This document shows, piece by piece, positions 17,606-24,138 of a stretch of 31,009 nucleotides of DNA. Position 1 is the stretch's first letter; every line of letters begins with the position of its first letter. Source of the stretch: a virus. The stretch covers positions 1-31,009 of IMG/VR virus record IMGVR_UViG_3300033153_003975, one strand, 5' to 3'. The position numbers and the translations under genes are program-made. Below the pieces are notes generated by a model that saw only the letters and a program-made list of their open reading frames with translations, was not told where the DNA came from and searched no databases.

Positions 17606-18298
17606 TCAAACCGCCATCCCAACCCCTTCCGTCACAAACCGCATCCACTCAGACGACCACTTAGCCCCGTTCTCATGCGTGCAAATTGCCCTCACATATT
17701 CAGCAATAGCAACCTGAGATTGCATATTCCAGCACTTTCTATTCACCATCTTTTCCACGTGCCTGATGTATGCCATGGTATCGTTATTGTCTGAGGCCGG
17801 TGCCCACCGCTTGATCACCTGTTCCGGATTTTTCAACCCGTGCTTGTCCCGGTACGTGATCAGGATTTTAGCCATGGCCCGGATGCCATAGACCATCTCG
17901 GTAAACTCTTCAAAATCTGGATCCCAATCACCTTCCGCCTCACCGTCCCACGCATAGTCGGTGTATTGATTTTCACGGATATTCCCAGGGTTGTTGTTGC
18001 GGATGCCCCGCGGCTTGTCTTTCATGTCTTCAACCTCCATCCCCAAATTAACAGCAAGTCTTTTCGTCTTGATCGCTTTCCACTCATCCACTAAATCTGC
18101 GTCAAAAATAATCCTCATCTGCGCAAGCATTATTTCAACGTCAGCCAACTCTTCTTCTACCGTGCTCTTGTCTGTCCTGCACCGGTGCCTTCGGTTGATC
18201 GCGCTCAAAAGCTCGCCCATCTCTTCGATGAGCATTCCAACCTGAGATTCTTCACCCCAAGTGTCAGCGGCTCTTTTGTATACGTCTCCTCCCATCAT
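17606..18298 (-). CDS. MazG-like pyrophosphohydrolase fused to a peptidoglycan-hydrolase-like domain
   Basis: One 230-residue frame holds two unrelated domains. Residues 5-85 look like MazG nucleotide pyrophosphohydrolase: LIEEMGELLSAI (E25, E26, E29) and EEELADVEIM (E50, D53), the metal-binding helices. Residues 92-230 begin PRGIRNNNPGNIR and continue GIRAMAKILITYRDKHGL and VIKRWAPASDNN, the signature of a phage muralytic or virion-associated hydrolase family. An internal ATG at 18025 has GGAGG eight bases upstream, so a free 139-residue hydrolase may also be made. It is the last gene of the early operon and the only endolysin candidate seen here. The start overlaps the RuvC-like stop (ATGA). 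Confidence 0.72.
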   Translation of the reverse strand: MMGGDVYKRAADTWGEESQVGMLIEEMGELLSAINRRHRCRTDKSTVEEELADVEIMLAQMRIIFDADLVDEWKAIKTKRLAVNLGMEVEDMKDKPRGIRNNNPGNIRENQYTDYAWDGEAEGDWDPDFEEFTEMVYGIRAMAKILITYRDKHGLKNPEQVIKRWAPASDNNDTMAYIRHVEKMVNRKCWNMQSQVAIAEYVRAICTHENGAKWSSEWMRFVTEGVGMAV

Positions 18299-18771
18299 GC
18301 CCCCTGTTTGTCAATATACGTTACAGCAAGCGCCCAGCTTTGCCATTCATCATTTGCGATCTTATACCCACCATAAACCGGGTTGTCTTTCTTCTTAGTC
18401 GGCTTCGGCCCGAAACGGTCAATTAGGGCCTGTCTGATGTGGCTGTCTGTTGCGATGTGCCGGTGGCAGATGTGTTTTTTGATTTCTACCCGTGGTATAT
18501 ATTCAGCTTTTACACCTGACGACATTAACCACGCTTGCTCAAATCGACCGCACCAGACACATGTGTCAAATATCTCTTGGCCTACAGTTTGTCCGTACGA
18601 TCTTATTTGCTCGATTACGAGGTCTGATTTTTCAAAGGTAGGCCACGAATGTTGGAGCCTCCACAGCAATCTCTCGTTGTCGTCTTTGGTGGATAAAAGT
18701 ACAGTCTCACCATCCCAAATCACCAAACCGCTTTCCGTGGTACCCGGATCAATCGCTATTACCGTAGTCAC
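18295..18771 (-). CDS. RuvC-like Holliday junction resolvase
   Basis: A 158-residue protein with RNase H-fold nuclease features: VIAIDPGTTESG (D8), DLVIEQIRSYG (E54), and IANDEWQSWALAV (D141) near the C terminus, matching the acidic triad of RuvC-type resolvases of phage and poxvirus type. It would cut branched DNA made during replication and recombination before packaging. I chose GTG 18771 because it overlaps the preceding stop (GTGA) after TGGGGGTGT. It is followed by the MazG fusion with an ATGA overlap. Confidence 0.78.
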   Translation of the reverse strand: MTTVIAIDPGTTESGLVIWDGETVLLSTKDDNERLLWRLQHSWPTFEKSDLVIEQIRSYGQTVGQEIFDTCVWCGRFEQAWLMSSGVKAEYIPRVEIKKHICHRHIATDSHIRQALIDRFGPKPTKKKDNPVYGGYKIANDEWQSWALAVTYIDKQGA

Positions 18772-19078
18772 ACACACCCCCAAGTCCGACCCTCAAGCGC
18801 CATCTTAAGCGTATCAAAACAGCATGTGAGGTCATGGTCTTTTTTGAATTTCATGATGTAGTCTCGTTTAAGTCCAAAACATGATACAATATTTTCGTGG
18901 TTCCGTCCCTTGACATTCCAAGCCATTCCGCAGCCGCCGCAATGGTCCCAAGGCGCAAATACGTCTTGTGGACCATCTCTGTGATGTATTCGAAACCTGC
19001 AGCTTCGGCATCCTCCCGCCAATCGCCAGGGTGATTCCATTGGCGGCTGGAATCAAGCGCGGCATAATCTGGCATCAT
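18768..19078 (-). CDS. HTH-like protein split over two frames (candidate frameshift)
   Basis: Frame 1 starts at ATG 19078 (ATGA overlap with the upstream gene) and reads EAAGFEYITEMVHKTYLRLG, then TIAAAAEWLGMSRDGTT, a helix-turn-helix-like stretch, ending ETTS at 18851. Frame 2 (-1) carries KRDYIMKFKKDHDLTCCF and LKMALEGRTWGCV to the stop at 18768. The upstream neighbour, a single intact frame, has YITEAAEGLYLEYG then GETWGDVV at its end, so both halves resemble one protein. The frames overlap at GACTTAAACGAG; CTTAAAC is close to a slippery heptamer. Otherwise frame 2 could start at ATG 18854, overlapping the frame 1 stop (ATGA). Confidence 0.55.
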
Positions 19079-19494
19079 ACCACATCCCCCCAAGTCTCAC
19101 CCCTCAGCATAGACCTCATGCAATTATTTGAAATATCAACCCCCAAGATAACCTTCAGCGCATCGCAATATCGATGATCAACGCTGACCCCATCCCACAC
19201 AAGCTTAGCCTTCCTGACCATGTCCTCGTTTAGCTTGTATGCGTTTTCACGCCTACCTCCGACCTTTTTCTTGTTTCTCACAATCCCGATATATTGGAGC
19301 ACCCTGGCAAACCCTGGTTGGCTCATCTCCATCATCTTAGCGCCCTTCACGACCCCATACTCAAGATACAAACCTTCAGCTGCTTCGGTGATATATTTAT
19401 ACCCATACTTTTCAGCGAGAGCCTTTTTATCTGCCTTATACGCGAAGGATCTCCCCGCGTCCAACGTAAGATAATCTCGTTCACTTTTCATCAT
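19075..19494 (-). CDS. HTH-like DNA-binding protein
   Basis: A 139-residue protein from ATG 19494 (GGGAGGGG seven bases upstream), overlapping the RMF-like gene by 14 bases. The core (KYGYKYITEAAEGLYLEYG, VVKGAKMMEMSQPGFARVLQ) looks like a helix-turn-helix in which GVVKGAKMMEMSQPGFARVL would be turn and recognition helix. A basic segment (RNKKKVGGRREN) follows and the end reads MRSMLRGETWGDVV. It shares the layout of its downstream neighbour, so the two are probably paralogues. A role in phage gene control is likely but not shown. Confidence 0.6.
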   Translation of the reverse strand: MMKSERDYLTLDAGRSFAYKADKKALAEKYGYKYITEAAEGLYLEYGVVKGAKMMEMSQPGFARVLQYIGIVRNKKKVGGRRENAYKLNEDMVRKAKLVWDGVSVDHRYCDALKVILGVDISNNCMRSMLRGETWGDVV

Positions 19495-19675
19495 CACATC
19501 CCCTCCCATTCTCGCAATAACCGCCCCTGGCAGCTTCCCACCAACCGTCTTCCCACTCTTCACGTTCCATGTCGGATTCCGTGTAAGGGTTTTCACTGTC
19601 CGATTTTCCATTTCTGTTGGCGTCCACTCCTTCCTCGAATGCGGTCATTTTCATATCCTCATCAATCTCCCCCAT
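19481..19675 (-). CDS. Ribosome-modulation-factor-like small protein
   Basis: A 64-residue protein with AFEEGVDANRNGKSDSENPY, then REEWEDGWWEAARGG. The pattern G-x3-A-x2-G, NPY, and R/E-x-W-x2-GW is that of the small RMF-like family, whose founding member dimerises ribosomes in stationary cells; phage versions are common and uncharacterised. The ATG at 19675 overlaps the stop of the PAPS-reductase-like gene (TGATG). The codons upstream of this ATG (HIKKHIGKL) are still in frame and match the N terminus of that upstream gene, a trace of duplication. Confidence 0.55.
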   Translation of the reverse strand: MGEIDEDMKMTAFEEGVDANRNGKSDSENPYTESDMEREEWEDGWWEAARGGYCENGRGCDDEK

Positions 19676-19702
19676 CAACTTGCCGATGTGTTTTTTGATG
19701 TG
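19656..19702. repeat. Direct repeat copy 1 flanking the PAPS-reductase-like gene
   Basis: This copy and the one at 20462-20505 match at 35 of 39 aligned positions plus TCCTC, after a 3-base gap. They share an exact 19-base core, CCCCATCAACTTGCCGATG. All four mismatches are C/T transitions. The copies lie at opposite ends of one gene. Confidence 0.8.
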
Positions 19703-20520
19703 AAAAGCTTTAACTGCCTACTGTCTATAAGTTTCTCATTAGCAAACCTCCTGTCGAGATCTTTAACCGATTCGTAACCTCTAAACCCTTTGTTGTGACC
19801 TGGGATGCTTGCATCCATACTTAGCATCTTGTCCCATATCTCTGGATAATGATCTCTCAATTTCCTCAACTCACCAATCCGTTGAAGCGGGCAACAAAAG
19901 CAAGATACCCTGTCAAACACGTCATAAAGGCCACCCCAATCAAAGCCTTTCAATTTGCAATATCGTATAGCATCGGATTCTGTTACTCCGTACTCAACAA
20001 GAGGGAATCTCCTCTTTTTAGTATTCTTTTGCATCGACTTTGAAACATTTTCATAGCGTCTTGGCTCATCATATGCATAGCCAATGCACTCGACAACATT
20101 GAGAATTGTCTTTGTGTACTTTTTTATCGCGTCAACTTTTTGCCTGGTACACCACCTTCGCATCGGTGACGGCCACCCGTTTCCTATTCTGTGAACTTTA
20201 CCTTTCATGGATCCCTTCCTGGCGATTACCTGGCGTTCATACATCCAATAGTCAAAAGACCTTTCAGGAACCAGACGCACTATTGGAATATCAACCATAG
20301 ACTCAAGCTGATCAAGGTGAACTTGCATTTCTGGAAACTCCCACCCTGTATCAAAAAATACCGCTGAATGTATCTTTTCTCCACGTTCAATCATCATCAA
20401 CAGCATGGCCGTTGAGTCTTTACCCCCAGACAAAGAAACTATTTGATTTTCCACAACCCTCTCCTCAATCTTCCCCATCAACTTGCCGATGCGCTCTTTG
20501 ATGTGCGTCAATTCGCCCAT
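19675..20520 (-). CDS. PAPS-reductase-family protein (ATP pyrophosphatase fold)
   Basis: A 281-residue protein with the PP-motif VSLSGGKDSTAML (SGGKDS at 31-36), HSAVFFDTGWEFPE, RRWCTRQKV (C124) and SCFCCPLQRIGELRKL (C207, C209, C210). This is the adenylating N-type pyrophosphatase fold of PAPS reductases. The three clustered Cys plus C124 may bind Fe-S or zinc, as in DndC-like relatives. Phage members are common but their substrates are mostly unknown; sulfur transfer to nucleic acid or nucleotide is one possibility. ATG 20520 overlaps the helicase stop (TAATG). The 44-47-base direct repeats at both ends suggest it was inserted as a cassette. Confidence 0.8.
   Translation of the reverse strand: MGELTHIKERIGKLMGKIEERVVENQIVSLSGGKDSTAMLLMMIERGEKIHSAVFFDTGWEFPEMQVHLDQLESMVDIPIVRLVPERSFDYWMYERQVIARKGSMKGKVHRIGNGWPSPMRRWCTRQKVDAIKKYTKTILNVVECIGYAYDEPRRYENVSKSMQKNTKKRRFPLVEYGVTESDAIRYCKLKGFDWGGLYDVFDRVSCFCCPLQRIGELRKLRDHYPEIWDKMLSMDASIPGHNKGFRGYESVKDLDRRFANEKLIDSRQLKLFTSKNTSAS
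20462..20505. repeat. Direct repeat copy 2 flanking the PAPS-reductase-like gene
   Basis: Encodes HIKERIGKLMGKIEE at the start of the PAPS-reductase-like protein. Copy 1, read in the RMF-like frame, encodes HIKKHIGKLMGEIDED, so the same peptide N terminus has been duplicated on either side of the gene. Confidence 0.8.
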
Positions 20521-21845
20521 TATAGCTGCATCCTCTTGCTTTCATCGCTCGAAAACCTGAAATACTTACCATCCCAACGAATGCCCTGGATGATTCCAGC
20601 CTGCCCCCTCCTGAGCTTCCTGGCAAACAAAACGGCGTGCGACTCATCCTGCGACATGTTGTAGTGACACGGGAACCATGGAAATAGTACGGCATCCGCA
20701 TCTTGCTCGATAGACCCGGCATCCCTTAAATCAGACATTGTCGGAAACTTTGACCCGGCCCTTGTCTCAATATTCCGGTTCATCTGACACAGAGTTATCA
20801 CCGGCACTTCAAGCTCTTTCGCCATGATCTTTGACAGTCTTGTAATCTCTGCTTTTGAACCTTGGCCCTCCTTGTTCCACCCCTCTATGAGTTGGAGATA
20901 GTCCACAACAATGAAATCAAGCCCAAATTTGGACTTAATCGCCTTGGCTTTGGTCATCATGTCAACCGCGCTTATCTTGGCCGTGTCGTCGATAAAAAGC
21001 GGCATCTGTTTGATTTGCCTTCTGGCTGATTTTAAATCTCTCCAAGCTTGTTCGTGCGCCTCCCTCTCCACGTTGGCAACTCGGTCAAGATGGTATTCAA
21101 GCTGATTCTTAAAAATCATGGCGCTGTCAATGGAGCCAACGTCACATGCAAGCCTTGCTATAAGCTGGTCTGACGGCATTTCGAGAGAGAATACAAGGCC
21201 AGTCTTCCCCATGTTCCCCCAGTTGCGCGCCCAGTTCATAGCCATTGATGTCTTCCCGGACCCTGGCCGTGCCGCGACAACAATCCAATCCCCAGGCATG
21301 AATCCACCAGTAGCCCTGTCCAGGCTTTGGATGCCAGTCATGATACCTGGGTTGATTCCGTTCTTCCGCATCTCGATGAAATTATCAAAGAACGAGTCGG
21401 CAAGTTCCGAAACACATTGGATAGACTTTTCATCATAGACGGAAATGCTCGCATTTGCCTTGTGGATGATCTCTGATGGTTCAGCCCCGGAGAAGCATTG
21501 TTCAAGTCCACTTTGATATGCCCTGGCGATTGAGCGGCGCATTGAGGCTGCTTTGAGCTTATCAACTGAAAATTGAATGTTGCTTGATCCGTAGTTGTCG
21601 GTCATATCTGAAATTACTGATGCCTTAACAATGCCGCCGAGGTCGTGGTAAACGGTCAATATGTCAGCTTCAACTCCAGAGCTGATGAGCTTTGCAATCG
21701 ACTTGTAAACAATAACCCTGTCACCGGTAAACATCGTCTCGCTTGTTTCTGCGGAAAAGAAGGACTCGTTGTCGAATAAGAACGACCCCAACACTCCTTT
21801 TTCAATATCAGTGTATGCCAAATCGTCTAACCTATCTCTTTGCAT
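20520..21845 (-). CDS. dnaB: Replicative DNA helicase, DnaB-like
   Basis: A 441-residue protein with both DnaB domains. The N-terminal part (residues 10-110) is the helical primase-interaction domain; the C-terminal RecA-like motor has Walker A ARPGSGKT (192-199), LVFSLEMPSDQL (H1a region), Walker B FIVVDYLQLIEG, and ITLCQMNRNIETR with SDLRDAGSIEQDAD, all classic DnaB motifs. It unwinds DNA at the phage fork as a hexamer. It lies directly after the O-like initiator and overlaps it, so the initiator probably loads it. The ATG at 21845 lies within the upstream gene with AGGGGGAAC as ribosome site. Confidence 0.95.
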   Translation of the reverse strand: MQRDRLDDLAYTDIEKGVLGSFLFDNESFFSAETSETMFTGDRVIVYKSIAKLISSGVEADILTVYHDLGGIVKASVISDMTDNYGSSNIQFSVDKLKAASMRRSIARAYQSGLEQCFSGAEPSEIIHKANASISVYDEKSIQCVSELADSFFDNFIEMRKNGINPGIMTGIQSLDRATGGFMPGDWIVVAARPGSGKTSMAMNWARNWGNMGKTGLVFSLEMPSDQLIARLACDVGSIDSAMIFKNQLEYHLDRVANVEREAHEQAWRDLKSARRQIKQMPLFIDDTAKISAVDMMTKAKAIKSKFGLDFIVVDYLQLIEGWNKEGQGSKAEITRLSKIMAKELEVPVITLCQMNRNIETRAGSKFPTMSDLRDAGSIEQDADAVLFPWFPCHYNMSQDESHAVLFARKLRRGQAGIIQGIRWDGKYFRFSSDESKRMQL

Positions 21846-23239: not shown

Positions 23240-23542
23240 TCACATGTATTTTTCGTGCAACTCATCAATTTTCTCATGTTCAAGCCTAAGCCTTTCAAGG
23301 CACTTGTGTGGGGCTTCATACCCACGATTGGAATATTTCGCGTTTAACTTCATAGGATCTGGACCAGTCTGAAACCAGTAGATAATCTGATCATGCATAC
23401 AGTCCTTAGCCTCTCCCTTTGTTGGCCTTTTAAGCATTCTTTCAAGGTCATCAGAATCTTGGTATCCACCCGTCATATCATCAGCCGGACCGACTTTGTA
23501 GAAAAGGTATTCCCAATCTTTTCTAACTTCTTCGTAATTCAT
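23240..23542 (-). CDS. Unknown early protein (100 aa)
   Basis: A 100-residue charged protein (VRKDWEYLFYKVGPADDMTG, CLERLRLEHEKIDELHEKYM at the C terminus) with a likely helical ending. The ATG at 23542 overlaps the HNH gene's stop codon (ATGA). It is the last gene before the terminator at 23195-23222. No family recognised. Because the HNH gene upstream looks mobile, this gene may once have followed the small membrane gene directly. Confidence 0.55.
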   Translation of the reverse strand: MNYEEVRKDWEYLFYKVGPADDMTGGYQDSDDLERMLKRPTKGEAKDCMHDQIIYWFQTGPDPMKLNAKYSNRGYEAPHKCLERLRLEHEKIDELHEKYM

Positions 23543-24138
23543 TCAGCACCCCCCTTACCCGGCATCGGGCTGTCCTGGCAGTCCTGGATCTCGATCATCT
23601 TTTCTGTGGCATAGTGCGTTTTTAAGAAATTATAAGCAGATGAATCTTTGCAGCATATGTAAAATTTGTATTTCTTTTCAGCTTCATTCCTAAGCTTAAC
23701 AGCTTCTATAAAATCGCCTGAGTAGCCAAGGTTTTTGAATTTTCTATCGACTACAATAAATGCCCTCCATTTATTATTTGTGTTGCACCAACAAACACCT
23801 TTTACACCAGACTTATTGTTTTTAGGCTTGCCTCTATTTCTCATATTGCACATTTGCGAAACCTCTCTTAGATTTTCAATTCTGTTATCATCCTTGCACC
23901 TATTGATGTGATCTATGCCGTTTTCTGGCATATAACCTTTCTCATAAAGCCAAGCGAGCCTATGCTCAAGATACCTTTCACCCCTAATTTGTATCCGTCT
24001 ATAACCAGATACCGCTGTGTCACCAGCAACATCTCCAATGTATATCCCTTGCTTTGGGCTTATTTTCCATATGAATGTGCCTGTGATATTGTCGTAATCC
24101 AATATTTTCCGTAGTTCTTTGCGTGTTATTTTAGGCAT
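23539..24138 (-). CDS. HNH endonuclease with AP2 DNA-binding domain
   Basis: A 199-residue protein. Residues 50-100 carry an HNH_3-type nuclease core: YLEHRLAWLYEKGYMP, then GIDHINRCKDDNRIENLREV, with H59, D76/H77 and N89 as probable active-site residues. Residues 107-155 (GVKGVCWCNTNNKWRAFIVV, YSGDFIEAVKLRNEAEKKY) are an AP2-type DNA-binding domain. This pairing is typical of free-standing homing endonucleases in phages. AAAAGGAGGCCCC supplies the ribosome site. It lies in the early operon and overlaps the next gene, so it may be a selfish insertion that keeps transcription intact. Confidence 0.85.
   Translation of the reverse strand: MPKITRKELRKILDYDNITGTFIWKISPKQGIYIGDVAGDTAVSGYRRIQIRGERYLEHRLAWLYEKGYMPENGIDHINRCKDDNRIENLREVSQMCNMRNRGKPKNNKSGVKGVCWCNTNNKWRAFIVVDRKFKNLGYSGDFIEAVKLRNEAEKKYKFYICCKDSSAYNFLKTHYATEKMIEIQDCQDSPMPGKGGAE

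Follow-up and report, generated by a model that had tools for sequence, protein, structure and literature searches.

It has long been asked how phages add single foreign genes without breaking the tightly packed genes around them, and the question is raised here by the replication region of an IMG/VR virus record of 31,009 bases, referred to in its full length as the window. On the minus strand this region encodes, in order, a DnaD-like loader, a DnaB helicase, a PP-loop enzyme, an RMF-like protein (PF04957 RMF, 33.6 bits against a Pfam cut-off of 27.9, and under the NCBIfam cut-offs), a 178-aa protein and a RuvC-like resolvase. The enzyme gene stands between two long direct repeats, and we consider it probable that an SspD-like gene was inserted here between the DnaB and RMF-like genes, duplicating about 45 bp of its target.

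Direct repeats at both ends of the enzyme gene

The original prediction placed near-identical long direct repeats with an exact 19-base core at the two ends of the gene, about 0.8 kb apart, and a repeat search of the region recovered them as 45-nt copies on the minus strand (20505–20461 and 19702–19658), equal at 40 of 45 positions (89%), 803 nt apart and sharing CATCGGCAAGTTGATGGGG as the exact 19-base core. They form the only 45-nt direct-repeat family in the region; besides this pair, the window has no 45-base pair equal at 35 or more of 45 positions, and across 20 first-order Markov shuffles of the window the best pair reached 28–29 of 45, against 40 in the real sequence. Divergence between the copies is 11% (5/45), and each of the five mismatches changes an amino acid when the copies are read in the HIK frame. 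A stretch within dnaB but on the other strand, at 21384–21406, equals the repeat at 20 of 23 bases (maximum 18 in 400 shuffled strands), which may be chance.

The upstream copy begins directly after the DnaB stop codon and lengthens the enzyme gene in frame at its N-terminus, whilst the downstream copy supplies the 3′ end of the enzyme gene and, read in a different frame, the region in which the RMF-like gene starts. One candidate ATG of the RMF-like gene, at 19675, shares one base with the TGA stop of the enzyme (Table 1). As had been predicted, the RMF-like frame stays open 5′ of its ATG and resembles the start of the enzyme: it reads HIKKHIGKLMGEIDED, and the enzyme gene, upstream, begins MGELTHIKERIGKLMGKIEE. 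The two closest homologues of the enzyme (76% and 70% identical) begin MTNQIVSLSGG (MTNQIVSLSGGKDS) and finish with KQLKLFA or RQLKLF directly before the stop, in most other homologues the N-terminus lies only a few residues ahead of VSxSGGKDS and the PP-loop, and the homologous core of the window enzyme runs from the GTG at 20454 (MENQIVSLSGG) to QLKLF at 19702. The extra N-terminus of the window enzyme (MGELTHIKERIGKLMGKIEER) and its tail TSKNTSAS therefore appear to derive from the repeats, and the native gene, as delimited by its homologues, is predicted to fit exactly between the two copies. The GAGGAG that ends the upstream copy may be the present ribosome-binding site for the GTG at 20454.

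Table 1 Coordinates of the repeats, genes and junction at the insertion site, in window numbering.
Feature	Position	Strand	Description
Upstream repeat copy	20461..20505	-	Putative original 5′ end of the RMF-like gene that at present extends the enzyme N-terminally, HIKERIGKLMGKIEE; GAGGAG at its 3′ end precedes the GTG at 20454 by a few bases
Downstream repeat copy	19658..19702	-	Last 8 codons and stop of the enzyme (TSKNTSAS, stop) in one frame; HIKKHIGKLMGEIDE in the RMF frame
Putative native body of the inserted gene	19702..20454	-	GTG start, MENQIVSLSGGKDS...RQLKLF; SspD-like/PAPS_reduct-domain PP-loop ATPase
Present whole ORF, 281 aa	19675..20520	-	Native body with the putative repeat-derived ends
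RMF-like gene	19481..19675	-	Candidate ATG starts at 19675, 19654 and 19648
DnaB-stop junction, TATAATGGGCGAATTGACG	20506..20525	-	Holds the ATG at which the extended RMF-like gene, as proposed for the ancestor, would start
DnaB-like replicative helicase	20520..21845	-	Neighbour upstream of the insertion

It had also been claimed that removal of the gene would leave an RMF-like protein with an intact, extended N terminus. Joining the flanks without the enzyme gene did give one open RMF-like frame, MGELTHIKERIGKLMGKIEEDMKMTAFEEGVDANRNGKSDSENPYTESDMEREEWEDGWWEAARGGYCENGRGCDDEK (MGELTHIKERIGKLMGKIEEDMKMTAFEEG...CDDEK), and precise excision by recombination between the copies would be possible in principle. 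The enzyme gene deviates in composition from its surroundings, with a G+C content of 42.3% against 48.6% in the window and a GC3 of 42.8 against 56.1 in DnaB, and its neighbours differ between the window and two loci with related genes (L002 and L003), a pattern that a mobile accessory gene would be expected to produce.

Only the ORF of the PP-loop enzyme lies between the repeats; the insert holds no transposase or recombinase, and none of the inverted pairs from the repeat search brackets it as terminal repeats. These features bear on whether a conventional transposable or homing element delivered the gene, with a target-site duplication as its trace, a history that would account for direct repeats at both ends and might draw on the gene with a weak homing endonuclease match elsewhere in the window (23539–24138, minus strand), which is likely a second mobile gene of the replication region. 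A transposase is nonetheless unlikely, because the insert consists of one ORF, lacks terminal inverted repeats and is flanked by a duplication whose length varies from 13 to 45 bp among loci (see below), and we give an element of this kind almost no credence.

Two further genes near the site have unusual structures. An intact 133-aa protein of L002 (4603–5004) is matched, one part after the other, by two overlapping ORFs at 18768–19093 (minus strand), 90 and 80 aa long; the window gene looks frame-shifted and also has a relative in the adjacent 178-aa gene. At 17606–18298 (minus strand) a single ORF joins an N-terminal MazG pyrophosphohydrolase match to a C-terminal endolysin-type domain, an apparent fusion.

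Identity of the enzyme

The enzyme was originally described as PAPS-reductase-like. It does match PF01507 PAPS_reduct in Pfam (49.6 bits, cut-off 22.5), and PHROG 424 likewise assigns it to the PAPS-reductase type, but the PADLOC model of SspD from the SspABCD DNA phosphorothioation system also matches it (E 3e-29), together with all 18 of its aligned relatives, and it is closer to SspD. True PAPS reductases (CysH) carry the active-site motif ECG[IL]H; this motif is not present in the window enzyme, in which SGGKDS, RRWCTRQK and CFCC are found. To judge from its motifs and profile matches, the name SspD-like PP-loop ATPase would suit the protein better than PAPS reductase. SspD is the equivalent of DndC in the Ssp phosphorothioation system (PMC10853773), and SspD-like ORFs in prophages have been listed earlier (PMC12429752). 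In the SspABCD system SspA, SspB and SspC stand beside SspD, whereas none of the three found a match among the other window proteins scanned, in a record that may be a fragment.

Filled and empty sites

A filled and an empty site were found for a homologous gene in phages of Clostridioides difficile. Clostridioides phage AR1074-1 (L294) carries a related gene with a PF01507 match, 35% identical to the window protein, which is missing from phage pCD5401_3 (L302). In this empty site the flank alignments reach position 1679 from one side and begin at 1657 from the other, a 23-base overlap, and a single AGAAAAAGAAGGGGCGAAAAAATGAA is present; in AR1074-1 the same sequence, slightly diverged, lies on both sides of the gene. 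Since deletion between repeats also yields an empty form, and pCD5401_3 could have arisen in this way, we infer the direction of change in the pair. The PP-loop gene of AR1074-1 (L294 1992–2720) appears to be frame-shifted near its 3′ end, where the continuing frame ends ERQINFFNTEKKGRKNERV.

The C. difficile pair also speaks to a two-step history, in which slippage or unequal recombination first duplicated the start of the RMF-like gene in tandem and a later capture placed the enzyme gene between the copies. Tandem duplications do happen in these phages, and the strongest control ORFs described below include tandem paralogues (L196), but such a history needs two events, the second falling exactly between 45-bp copies, and the pair presents one copy without the gene and two copies with it, and no intermediate, which makes it distinctly unlikely in our view. 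Comparison of two Salmonella Guernseyvirinae loci (L297 and L303) gave a variable slot with no flanking repeats; in Salmonella phage GRNsp27 (L297 1560–2815) this slot lies between structural genes, and it is occupied by a PP-loop gene in some phages and by RusA, a phosphatase or other genes in relatives. Serratia phage Parlo has a repeat with 21 of 24 bases equal, a single copy of which was not seen in its Klebsiella relatives.

For the window phage itself, the predicted gene-less relative with a single repeat copy was not found in any collection searched, and because of this we infer the direction of change at the window site. Relatives by capsid protein comprised 76 other viral contigs, among which there was only a distant DnaB (6 of 43) and no RMF (45 records). 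The window DnaB and the 178-aa neighbour, used as queries, recovered no relatives, neither the degenerate pattern HIKxxIGKLMG nor a match to the extended RMF-like protein was found in IMG/VR, and the 17-base core, which occurs in 29 viral contigs, gave matches that stopped short of the full repeat (31/45 at best). No DnaB match was found in the six records with the closest relatives of the enzyme gene. Replication modules are mosaic on this evidence, which would suit the import of the repeats, the enzyme gene and the RMF-like gene as one unit from another phage, the duplication having arisen elsewhere. However, no candidate donor sharing this arrangement came to light and the upstream copy directly follows the stop codon of DnaB, and we regard such an import as very unlikely.

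Recurrence of flanking repeats at other loci

Repeats flanking related genes were scored at 150 distinct loci with a usable gene, drawn from one initial scan and two profile scans, counting only bases that adjoin the start and the stop. A score of at least 13 was reached at 8 of the 150 loci, compared with 3 of 1500 mismatched upstream/downstream pairs taken across loci (p = 5e-7) and with 16 of 1095 other ORFs of at least 150 aa in the fetched loci (p = 0.005), a set for which the start-codon rule was slightly unlike that of the related genes. Moving the threshold between 11 and 16 gave p-values of 0.0005–0.025 against the other ORFs. Abutting repeats were found at L161 (27/27), L006 (26–38 bp), L019 (17/17), L176 (16/16), L196 (17/18), and L020 and L178 (13/13 each), so that lengths across loci, the window included, are 13, 16, 17, 18, 27, 38 and 45 bp. 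The repeats are strong but locus-specific, their sequences being unrelated between loci and their arrangement alike: the repeated segment is the end of the preceding gene at L006 and the beginning of the following gene at L019, at L178 and, probably, at L268, and at L161 it takes in the stop codon on the upstream side and the ribosome-binding region on the downstream side. Most of the 150 loci have no repeat, a majority that needs age-related decay or other routes of insertion.

The ORFs that reached the threshold in the control set include tandem paralogues (for example at L196), repeated elements and several other accessory genes, among them another PP-loop ATPase (L062) and radical-SAM-like genes at L152 (5607–6483) and L163 (401–1235), which have exact flanking direct repeats of 19 and 20 bases. 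The scar is therefore not exclusive to the SspD-like gene family, and other phage genes have it at a lower rate. Repeats at L010 and L011 were rejected as insertion scars, as they stem partly from an apparent degraded 3′ end of the same PP-loop gene lying upstream of that gene (L010 2124–2278, L011 4889–4948); these remnants have a different history and suggest that an older copy of the gene was replaced or duplicated in place.

Whether the repeat might instead be a functional translation-initiation or regulatory module, copied before both genes and kept by selection regardless of any insertion, can be judged against the same data. Each copy ends in a Shine-Dalgarno-like sequence just ahead of a plausible start and can fold into a weak hairpin (z −1.7 and −2.5), the RNA folding being weakly better than that of shuffles. 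Against this, the window has no further copy of comparable quality, the degenerate motif is missing from IMG/VR, the exact matches to the 17-base core in other contigs stop short of the full repeat, and unrelated sequences occupy the same arrangement at other loci; we hold such a module to be unlikely. T4-type mobile regulatory cassettes reportedly contain PeSL motifs, short repeated sequences beside exchangeable small phage genes, said to be a shared promoter or terminator motif repeated across one genome. Unlike in these cassettes, each locus here has a repeat of its own, apparently taken from its own neighbouring gene.

A proposed route of insertion and its known counterparts

The insertion we favour would have proceeded by the entry of a stand-alone gene for an SspD-like PP-loop ATPase between the DnaB helicase and RMF-like genes, with two joints at staggered target points, so that about 45 bp, made up of the RMF-like start and ribosome-binding region, would be copied to both sides of the insert. 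Neither neighbour would be lost or interrupted, because the upstream copy would extend the enzyme in frame and supply a Shine-Dalgarno-like GAGGAG ahead of its native GTG, and the downstream copy would give the enzyme a stop codon and leave the RMF-like gene a start region. A route by replication template switching or illegitimate recombination, running from the recipient into the donor and rejoining the recipient slightly before the point of departure, would suit duplication lengths that vary and an insert without a recombinase. Staggered joining of the donor may give either a duplication or a deletion, and selection for intact neighbours would favour the duplication.

What had been proposed was a recent insertion that duplicated its target. 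Duplication of the target is well supported: native gene ends coincide with repeat ends, the joined flanks form one open frame, related genes in other phages are bordered in a like manner by unrelated sequences, and the C. difficile pair has a filled and an empty site. The word 'recent' lacks support, as the copies have diverged at 5 of the 45 positions.

A comparison of Helicobacter pylori strains gave the description of insertion with long target duplication, which is linked to restriction-modification genes (PMC1643837), and 'long and variable target duplications' are given for the insertion of such genes (PMC3031569), with Nobusato et al. 2000 and Furuta et al. 2010 as the sources that these papers cite. 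As outlined there, an accessory gene without its own transposase lies between direct target copies of variable length, and a genome related to the first lacks the gene and has a single copy, a situation seen here in the C. difficile phages for a homologous gene; the window shares repeats that abut the insert (40/45), and length varies between insertions. Unlike those cases as outlined, the present ones involve a single SspD-like phage gene and short duplications of 13–45 bp placed on gene starts, stops and ribosome-binding regions. The recurrence around one phage gene family is thus a variant of the known insertion with long, variable target duplication. In bacterial genomes direct repeats flank ca. 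10% of the variable small segments, a microdiversity for which illegitimate recombination was proposed as the main source (PMC2884548); that work, however, concerns bacterial chromosomes, considers deletion between repeats and features no single recurring family of inserted genes. The papers searched contain no phage-specific report of such a scar at accessory genes, which is weak evidence of novelty.

Flanking duplications of this kind offer a concrete and searchable scar, one that fixes the boundaries of an insertion and reveals native starts and stops; for the window enzyme, the gain in annotation is that its extra N- and C-termini are probably target-derived. The scar also suggests a selective reason for its own form, as duplication spares the neighbours and deletion does not. 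More tentatively, it is possible that phage accessory genes commonly enter by one general, recombinase-free route, which would duplicate 13–50 bp of a gene boundary, lend the newcomer a ribosome-binding site or a stop and spare both neighbours; SspD-like genes may then be frequent travellers along this route, and its scars may amount to a genome-wide record of gene gain.
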